Part shown: piece after piece, positions 6,584-34,152 of the stretch
How the letters are laid out: each line of letters begins with the position of its first letter
How positions within the stretch are numbered: the stretch's first letter is position 1
Assembly: GCA_007134525.1 (NCBI GenBank)
Contig: SLKR01000087.1
Span: 1-37,171 of the forward strand
Direction: 5' to 3'
Source: Bacteroidales bacterium
Lineage (GTDB): Bacteria > Bacteroidota > Bacteroidia > Bacteroidales > UBA7960
Length of the DNA stretch: 37,171 nucleotides
Notes under the pieces: model-generated
The model's database searches: none
What the model saw: the letters and a program-made list of their open reading frames with translations, nothing else
Told to the model about the DNA's origin: nothing
Position numbers and translations under genes: made by a program

Positions 6584-6603
6584 TCATCTATCATAATCTT
6601 ATG

Positions 6604-6685
6604 TGCGGATGGAGGGACTCGAACCCCCACGCCTTGCGGCACCAGATCCTAAGTCTGGCGCGGCTACCAATTACGCCACATCCGC
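6604..6685 (-). tRNA. tRNA-Leu (anticodon UAG)
   Basis: An 82-nt cloverleaf on the minus strand. The 7-bp acceptor stem is GCGGATG/CATCCGC with discriminator A. The anticodon stem-loop CCAGA-CTTAGGA-TCTGG carries anticodon TAG. A long variable arm (TGCCGCAAGGCG) is typical of class II tRNAs such as leucine, and the T arm contains GTTCGAGTC. CCA is not encoded. It should decode CUN leucine codons. It sits between a sensor kinase gene and tig, with its own promoter box upstream and a terminator-like hairpin downstream. Confidence 0.97.
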
Positions 6686-18962: not shown

Positions 18963-19079
18963 CTATCCCTGACGTTGTTTGAATTTGGGGTTCTTTTTAT
19001 TTATTACATAAATCTTCCCCTTCCTCCGAACTACTTTGCAATCGGAGCTCCTTTTCTTTACCGACACTTTTACTTTCAT
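18963..19079 (-). CDS. rpmJ: 50S ribosomal protein L36
   Basis: A 38-residue protein, too short for a default ORF search. It reads [20 protein letters not shown] then [18 protein letters not shown], a full-length L36. Only one cysteine is present, so this is the zinc-free type rather than the CxxC zinc-ribbon form. It occupies the conserved place between infA and rpsM and contacts 23S rRNA in the late-assembling part of the 50S subunit. Confidence 0.96.
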
Positions 19080-25656: not shown

Positions 25657-25914
25657 TTACTTAGCTCTTTCAAGGATTTCAACTAATCTCCAACATTTAC
25701 TCTTGCTCAGAGGCCTGGTTTCCATGATCCTGACCGTGTCACCAATATTGCACTCATTTTTCTCGTCATGAGCCATGAAACGGGATGTACGCTTTACGAA
25801 CTTACCGTACTTGGGATGCCTTACCCTGCGCAGAACTTCTACTACGACAGACTTGTCCATCTTGTTGCTTACAACAAGGCCTGTTCTTTCTTTTCTGGGA
25901 TTTCTGGTTTCCAT
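25657..25914 (-). CDS. rpsQ: 30S ribosomal protein S17
   Basis: An 85-residue OB-fold protein that binds the 5' domain of 16S r[43 protein letters not shown] and [20 protein letters not shown] are the family segments. It lies 13 bp after rpmC and 2 bp before rplN. Confidence 0.98.
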
Positions 25915-25927
25915 TTTAACAAATTGA

Positions 25928-26128
25928 TTATTTCGTTTCTTCTATTTCCCTCTTCCGCAACTCAGTGAGGATGCGGGCAACAGTTCTGCGATAATCCTTT
26001 ATCTTCATCGGGTTCTCCAATGGTGATACCGCATGGTTCATTTTCAGCTTGCGCAATTGCTTCTTCTCCTCGTCCAAACGCTCACGTAGCTCGCTGATTG
26101 ACATTTCTCGTATTACATTCTGCTTCAT
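25928..26128 (-). CDS. rpmC: 50S ribosomal protein L29
   Basis: A 66-residue two-helix protein next to the exit tunnel, where it borders the trigger factor and SRP docking site of L23. [20 protein letters not shown] and [20 protein letters not shown] are typical. The ATG used gives the normal length; Met9 is a less likely alternative. Unusually, 126 nt separate it from rplP, and this gap has a promoter box and a GC-rich leader. Confidence 0.97.
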
Positions 26129-26212
26129 CTTTGCGCTGATTTAATTTTTTACAGCTTATCCGCCCTGGCATTCCCTGTTGGCGGCTTGCGGCCTTATAGA
26201 TAGCCTGCAAAA
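26129..26212 (-). ncRNA. Putative structured 5' leader of rpmC
   Basis: Downstream of the -7 box about 84 nt precede the rpmC start. The middle is a GC-rich island in an otherwise A/T-rich spacer. CCGCC pairs with GGCGG (outer ends 26160 and 26184 in plus-strand terms), GGC/GCC can close a CGCAA loop, and GCTG/CAGC can pair near the start codon. A leader RNA that controls the downstream ribosomal genes is an inference; no known leader family was recognised. Confidence 0.35.
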
Positions 26213-26217
26213 AGGCT
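26202..26217 (-). repeat. Small hairpin at the predicted rpmC transcript start
   Basis: AGCCT and AGGCT can pair around a TTTTGC loop on the minus strand, directly after the rpmC -7 box. It overlaps the likely first transcribed bases, so it might shape or process the 5' end. Confidence 0.35.
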
Positions 26218-26218
26218 G

Positions 26219-26226
26219 CAAAGTTA
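26219..26226 (-). promoter_or_regulatory. Internal -7 promoter box upstream of rpmC
   Basis: The minus strand reads TAACTTTG followed by CAG, an exact match to TAnnTTTG. No TTG stands at the usual 19-bp spacing. None of the other spacers between ribosomal genes in this block contains such a match, so it stands out as a likely internal promoter. Confidence 0.55.
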
Positions 26227-26254
26227 CAATTTTTTTCCTAATTCCCGGTTTATT

Positions 26255-26671
26255 TCAAACATAATCTCTTCTTACCACAAACTTGGTGGTTATAGGGAGT
26301 TTCTGCGATCCGAGCCTCATTGCCTCACGTGCGGTTTCAATATTAACACCATCCGCTTCGAAGAGTATCCTTCCCGGGCTTACCCTGGCAACAAAATACT
26401 CAGGGGCACCCTTACCTTTACCCATCCTAACCTCGGCTGGTTTTTTCGTAACAGGCTTGTCAGGAAAAATTCTTATCCAAAGTTGTCCTTCACGCTTCAT
26501 ACGGCGGGTTATTGCCTGACGCGCAGCCTCAATCTGGCGACCTGTTATCCAGCTCTCAGCAAGGGCCTTAATGCCAAAAGAACCGAACGCGAGTTCAGCA
26601 CCGCGTTTGGTGTTACCCTTCATGCGGCCCTTCTGCATTTTCCTGTATTTGGTTTTCTTAGGCTGTAACAT
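26255..26671 (-). CDS. rplP: 50S ribosomal protein L16
   Basis: A 138-residue protein near the peptidyl-transferase centre that contacts A-site t[43 protein letters not shown] and [20 protein letters not shown] are complete family signatures. It follows rpsC by 29 bp and is the last gene before the unusual spacer in front of rpmC. Confidence 0.98.
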
Positions 26672-34028: not shown

Positions 34029-34058
34029 CAAAGGTAGGAGTTATTTTTTGAAAACCAA
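34029..34058 (-). promoter_or_regulatory. Proximal promoter (P2) of the str-S10 block
   Basis: On the minus strand TTG, exactly 19 bp, then TACCTTTG followed by CAC. This is a full match to the Bacteroidetes promoter pattern. It lies about 70 nt before rpsL. Confidence 0.7.
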
Positions 34059-34144: not shown

Positions 34145-34152
34145 CAAAGGTA
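34145..34152 (-). promoter_or_regulatory. Distal promoter -7 box (P1) of the str-S10 block
   Basis: The minus strand reads CCTACCTTTG, repeating ten bases of the proximal promoter, 116 bp further upstream. There is no good TTG at 19 bp, only a T-rich stretch. It is probably a second start for the ribosomal transcript. Confidence 0.5.

Follow-up and report, generated by a model that had tools for sequence, protein, structure and literature searches.

A conserved promoter box and a candidate leader RNA between rplP and rpmC in a Bacteroidales family, with a loop hairpin common to Sphingobacteriaceae

The window analysed here is the whole of a 37,171-nucleotide stretch of DNA from a Bacteroidales bacterium (assembly GCA_007134525.1, contig SLKR01000087.1, positions 1 to 37,171), on whose minus strand the ribosomal operon runs from rpsL (33958) to rplQ (15783) as a continuous series of genes joined at 31 junctions. 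Pfam confirms the genes for L16, L29, S17, L14, L24 and S3, and the remaining operon genes are named from recognisable first residues together with gene order. Across the 31 gaps measured in the window, the spacing between rpsL and rplQ lies between −16 and 53 nt except at two places: the IF1–S13 gap, which is 168 nt long but holds an rpmJ-like open reading frame at 18963-19079, and the 126-nt gap between rplP and rpmC. An earlier note on this DNA, made from the sequence alone, had called the latter gap exceptional and the only one to carry a TAnnTTTG box; it is indeed the sole long spacer of the rpsL–rplQ run once the rpmJ-like frame is taken into account, and the box occurs in 1 of the 31 gaps. 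The features at this junction, in the direction of transcription, are as follows.

26255..26671, minus strand: rplP (L16), Pfam PF00252, the gene upstream of the leader
26129-26254, minus strand: the rplP–rpmC gap, 126 nt
26227..26246, minus strand: A/T-rich stretch 5' of the box, with no TTG or TTTG at −33 spacing in the window copy
26219..26226, minus strand: −7 type promoter box TAACTTTG, recognised by its sequence and conserved in 36/36 family gaps
26204..26218, minus strand: CAGCCTTTTTGCAGG, the most conserved stretch after the box (columns 9-23 of the family gap alignment)
26129..26213, minus strand: leader of about 85 nt predicted for the rpmC transcript from the position of the box
26190..26205, minus strand: leader hairpin 1, GGCU / loop AUCUAUAA / GGCC, from the minimum free energy (MFE) fold, without covariation support
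26160..26184, minus strand: leader hairpin 2, CCGCC / 15-nt loop / GGCGG, from the MFE fold, its stem recurring in the nearest relative L002 only
25928..26128, minus strand: rpmC (L29), Pfam PF00831, the first gene downstream of the leader
25657..25914, minus strand: rpsQ (S17), Pfam PF00366, the second gene downstream of the leader

As a bare pattern TAnnTTTG is not rare in the window, where 29 instances are found against 30.0 expected, and the TAACTTTG box therefore gains weight only from its conservation. Our family sample comprised 47 genomes, among them G000, to which the window belongs; the named loci of this group come from metagenome-assembled genomes of uncultured Bacteroidales such as CSSed162cmA_488 and KA13. 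The rplP gene was located in 36 of the family genomes; in every one of these the gap before rpmC measures 114-262 nt, and TAnnTTTG is present in each of the 36 distinct gaps, against 2.7 expected from mononucleotide shuffling of the same gaps. Outside the family the box appears in 1 of 194 rplP–rpmC gaps, a set that includes some repeated species, and the gap itself is mostly shorter than 50 nt in the other Bacteroidales families sampled; three Bacteroidales gaps of medium length (L057, L062 and L064, 42-46 nt) are filled by short simple hairpins. Directly after the box most family rows carry CAGCCTTTTTG, and an A tract at −10 to −5 is common. Because TTG with a 17-23 nt spacer occurs in only 5 of the 36 family gaps (a count in which the first pattern match of five rows lies slightly upstream of the main box, shifting those rows) and is absent from the window copy, we claim no −33 element. 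Primary-sigma promoters of Bacteroidetes, as described in PMC7366714, combine a −7 TAnnTTTG with a −33 TTTG; the family gaps resemble them in having a perfect −7 box in every one of the 36 and differ in that a TTG at the customary −33 distance is missing from most copies.

The conservation of the box across the family supports the proposal, made in the earlier note, of an internal promoter between rplP and rpmC, and we regard this half of its reading as well supported at the level of sequence. The predicted transcript start would lie at about 26211-26214 on the minus strand, given a box-to-start distance that we assume; the distance from box to ATG is 98 nt in the window copy and ranges from 96 to 238 nt across the family. 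Elsewhere in the window, two TACCTTTG boxes at 34029-34036 and 34145-34152, also on the minus strand and about 116 bp apart, lie upstream of rpsL and are likely the tandem main promoters of the str-S10-spc operon.

Downstream of the box the family leaders diverge fast and are built from small hairpins. One of these, a hairpin with a 7-nt CCGUUAC loop closed by G-C, is found in 11 of the 36 family gaps, in genera g1, g4, g6 and g8, and the loop is missing from the other 25; we infer that the form with the loop represents the ancestral leader. In genus g5, a consensus structure for nine sequences pairs in 97.6% of cells, and its covariation score is 0.217, whereas slid structures reach no more than 0.101. 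Four members of g3 and g8 (L022, L015, L028 and L031) have longer rpmC gaps of 207-262 nt, and L022 carries an A/T-rich inverted repeat 3' of the leader hairpin.

The window copy itself (L001) is a less telling representative. Its leader can be aligned with only one close relative, L002, and the CCGUUAC loop is absent from it and from the close relatives L002-L006. Folding of the window RNA gives −33.7 kcal/mol with a z of −0.76, and 42 of 200 shuffles fold as well, so that its helices are not beyond chance and the fold by itself is no evidence. The helices that the earlier note had placed in a GC-rich island are present, namely GGCU/GGCC (arms 26205-26202 and 26193-26190) and CCGCC/GGCGG (arms 26184-26180 and 26164-26160), but they have neither covariation support nor excess stability. 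Likewise, its suggestion of a folded autoregulatory leader finds support in the class of covarying hairpins seen in relatives but not in the window copy, by either its fold or its loop. Since the promoter is kept and the loop is missing, either the window leader has diverged in form or this mode of regulation no longer applies to it. Relatives do conserve the spacer, as the earlier reading implied. We also considered a long-range helix, UUUUUGCAG/CUGUAAAA, picked out by eye in genus g1 as closing the leader, and rejected it; against dinucleotide shuffles its p values ranged from 0.037 to 0.62 in g1, with 0.557 for the window copy, and reached 1.0 outside that genus.

The identical CCGUUAC loop recurs in the rplP–rpmC gap of a second lineage, family f26, which includes Sphingobacterium, Parapedobacter and further genera and which we take to be Sphingobacteriaceae, its best L16 matches being 96-99% identical to L16 of Sphingobacterium nematocida. 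Among 67 gaps from this family, whose loci are biased towards the best L16 matches, CCGTTAC is present in 38 and absent from 29. A hairpin scan that did not select for the loop found exactly CCGTTAC as a 7-nt loop on an unbroken stem of 6 bp or more in 35 of the 67 gaps, and one-base variants of the loop on stems of at least 6 bp were seen in none of them. We combined the two lineages in alignment A1, which holds 35 distinct CCGUUAC hairpins, 7 from the window's family and 28 from f26. Because its rows were picked by the loop, loop invariance in A1 is a product of selection and the alignment tests the stem only; here 88.3% of cells pair, all nine stem pairs change on both sides, and the covariation score of 0.786 compares with at most 0.174 in slid controls. 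The loop is closed by G-C in 31 hairpins and by A-U in 4. Around the hairpin, the longer leader of Sphingobacterium forms an outer stem that includes a conserved internal loop (score 0.426 against at most 0.083 for slid structures, 22 sequences).

The setting of the hairpin differs between the two lineages. In Sphingobacteriaceae the leader starts shortly after the rplP stop and no TAnnTTTG box was found in the rplP–rpmC gaps, so the leader would act within the long transcript, and promoter and leader need not form one device. Two Sphingobacteriaceae gaps, L160 and L170 (180 and 158 nt), carry additional insert-like sequence that separates the conserved leader from the rpmC start. At G409:C11:266529-266940 rplP is split in two and contains an in-frame TGA, probably through an assembly or sequencing error.

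The hairpin is restricted to rpmC leaders. A covariance model of the CCGUUAC hairpin, R1, gave only two matches with E below 1e-6 in 396 genomes of the class, both of them rpmC leaders, and at E of at most 0.2 it matched in 100 genomes where about 79 were expected by chance. When 30 of the R1 loci were read, 2 were rpmC leaders, 22 had CCGTTAC inside open frames of at least 60 codons, and the other 6, in whose central part no exact CCGTTAC was seen, were not placed; the class-genome matches above 1e-6 look like chance. In 151 Sphingobacteriaceae genomes the model matched in 65 at E of at most 0.05, and in 43 of the 151 a match lies just downstream of rplP, as judged by comparing positions by eye. 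Six matches elsewhere in these genomes were read (about 31 further ones were listed), of which five fall in open frames and the sixth, L286, has no exact CCGTTAC. A poorly planned pattern search of six genomes gave two matches, both unrelated to rpmC.

An internal control point in this stretch of ribosomal genes has a precedent in the S8 operator of the E. coli spc operon, which is located at rplE and mimics 16S helix 21. The present element would resemble it in that respect and differs from it in preceding rpmC and in having a loop with no copy in the rRNA stretches that we read. The earlier note had suspected a leader outside the families known to it, and the leader matches no Rfam family. 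With Rfam 15 at the gathering cut-off the window's only match is a tRNA-Leu at 6604-6685, the gene for which lies at 6603-6685 on the minus strand, and none falls in the leader; ten leader loci searched at E of at most 5 gave one sub-threshold chance match only. The list of 20 ribosomal-protein leaders in Table 1 of Eckert and Weinberg (2020, PMC7247131) has none for L29/rpmC. The terms L29 and rpmC are absent from PMC11109978, and a limited literature search found no published rpmC or L29 leader. Two features by which ribosomal-protein leaders are recognised are present: the element lies upstream of ribosomal genes, before rpmC in 36/36 family gaps, and it has a covarying secondary structure in relatives (A1, Sphingobacterium and g5). 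Like the L13 and S4 leaders of Bacteroidia in PMC7247131, it is an RNA with covarying structure that immediately precedes ribosomal genes within a lineage. Some of the leaders described there resemble no rRNA site, and the loop sequence of this element likewise has no copy in the rRNA loci read. Unlike those leaders, it precedes rpmC, its loop is common to two lineages, and in the window's family it has its own internal promoter.

On balance we favour the view that the junction is a regulatory joint across one Bacteroidales family, in which an internal promoter and a folded leader of the rpmC transcript together permit control through a loop that is read. The likeliest reading is a lineage-specific ribosomal-protein leader behind an internal promoter, found neither in Rfam nor in the 2020 list, and an identical loop in this position in both lineages suggests that ribosome building has a control element here that is yet to be described. 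We suggest that a TAnnTTTG promoter used by the housekeeping sigma factor would start a second transcript inside the operon, running from rpmC into rpsQ, rplN and the spc genes. This transcript would carry the folded leader, whose presumed ancestral form displays the CCGUUAC loop hairpin; the loop may be read by the product of a downstream gene, L29 or S17 most likely, or by free rRNA, and such reading would tune the translation of rpmC–rpsQ and of the genes coupled to them. The data show the position, the conserved box, the covarying hairpin and its confinement to rpmC leaders; the start of transcription, the ancestry of the loop, the ligand and the sign of the regulation are what we infer in this scheme.

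It is possible, if doubtful, that the junction holds a simple internal promoter that raises the output of the distal ribosomal genes, in which case the family leader would be drifting sequence without a regulator and the common loop would be incidental. Such a view fits the promoter block being the most conserved part of the spacer, the strong differences between leaders even within a genus, and the lack of excess fold stability in the window copy. It does not explain why the same stem-borne 7-nt loop is found at the same gap in two lineages, nor the covariation in the genus g5 leaders and in the joint hairpin set.

Within the preferred reading of a loop-bearing leader, the comparison with rRNA bears on what might read the loop. 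None of the nine rRNA-bearing loci examined, which cover 16S stretches and six 23S copies, contains CCGTTAC, and the hairpin therefore does not repeat the sequence of any rRNA site in the loci read. Mimicry of 23S H6/H7, the L24 or L29 site, as suggested by an E. coli sequence, was considered and rejected: the Bacteroidales 23S and five Sphingobacteriaceae 23S sequences have no CCGTTAC, and the H7 loop of the Bacteroidales 23S differs from the leader hairpin.

The loop is, by contrast with a copy, the exact reverse complement of GUAACGG, the loop of 16S helix 11, with the two 7-nt loops in register in the leaders that carry it (the window copy is not among them). In 3/3 16S sequences RNAfold places GUAACGG as a 7-nt loop on the 8-bp stem of h11, and the Rfam SSU structure line agrees for one of them. 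According to PMC3359968, S17 contacts 16S helix 11, and rpsQ is the second gene downstream of the leader. One could hypothesize from this complementarity that CCGUUAC pairs with GUAACGG of free 16S h11, so that the leader would sense 16S without S17 or recruit pre-30S particles and adjust rpsQ and its neighbours, and an invariant loop on a freely varying stem fits an invariant pairing partner. For a given 7-mer against one given in-register loop the chance is 1/16384 by rough arithmetic, before allowing for several comparisons. The match was, however, noticed post hoc; by arithmetic, roughly 24% of random 7-mers would have a complement within some 4.5 kb of rRNA, and a second complement of the loop indeed lies in the 23S in 6/6 copies. 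Both the CCGUUAC and the h11 loops are invariant in the sequences read and so show no compensatory change, the h11 loop may be buried in the mature 30S, and the window copy has no CCGUUAC. Given the chance of a complement, the 23S match and the several comparisons, we hold this pairing as a minority reading and think it unlikely. Fully complementary, in-register 7-nt loops resemble the kissing hairpins of ColE1 RNAI/RNAII, with the differences that the partner here would be 16S rRNA in place of an antisense RNA and that the pairing is a prediction from sequence complementarity. In its full form, which we put forward just as tentatively, the L29–S17 leader hairpin of two Bacteroidota lineages would be antisense to the 16S h11 loop and would read small-subunit assembly by kissing free 16S, not by binding a ribosomal protein, and the window's lineage would have kept the promoter and lost the loop.

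Very improbable, finally, is an intramolecular switch in Sphingobacterium, in which the outer 5' strand GGUAAUG would pair with loop CGUUACC in a pseudoknot alternating with the outer stem: GGUAAU, which is complementary to the loop, is identical in 22/22 rows of alignment A2, but GGTAAT was the criterion by which those 22 rows were chosen. Genera such as g174, g182, g183 and g184, and the window's family, keep the loop and do not have the strand, and L164 breaks one of the pairs.

We return to the lineage-specific leader as the reading with which to view this locus. Bacteroidota rarely use Shine-Dalgarno pairing, and to our knowledge little is settled about how bacteria other than Gammaproteobacteria control the S10-spc region. 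A covarying, invariant-loop hairpin that marks only rpmC leaders offers a concrete and testable control point, both in cultured Sphingobacterium and in an uncultured family. Should the loop prove to pair with 16S h11, unassembled rRNA would directly tune the ribosomal genes, and rRNA and protein would be kept in balance by a new mechanism.
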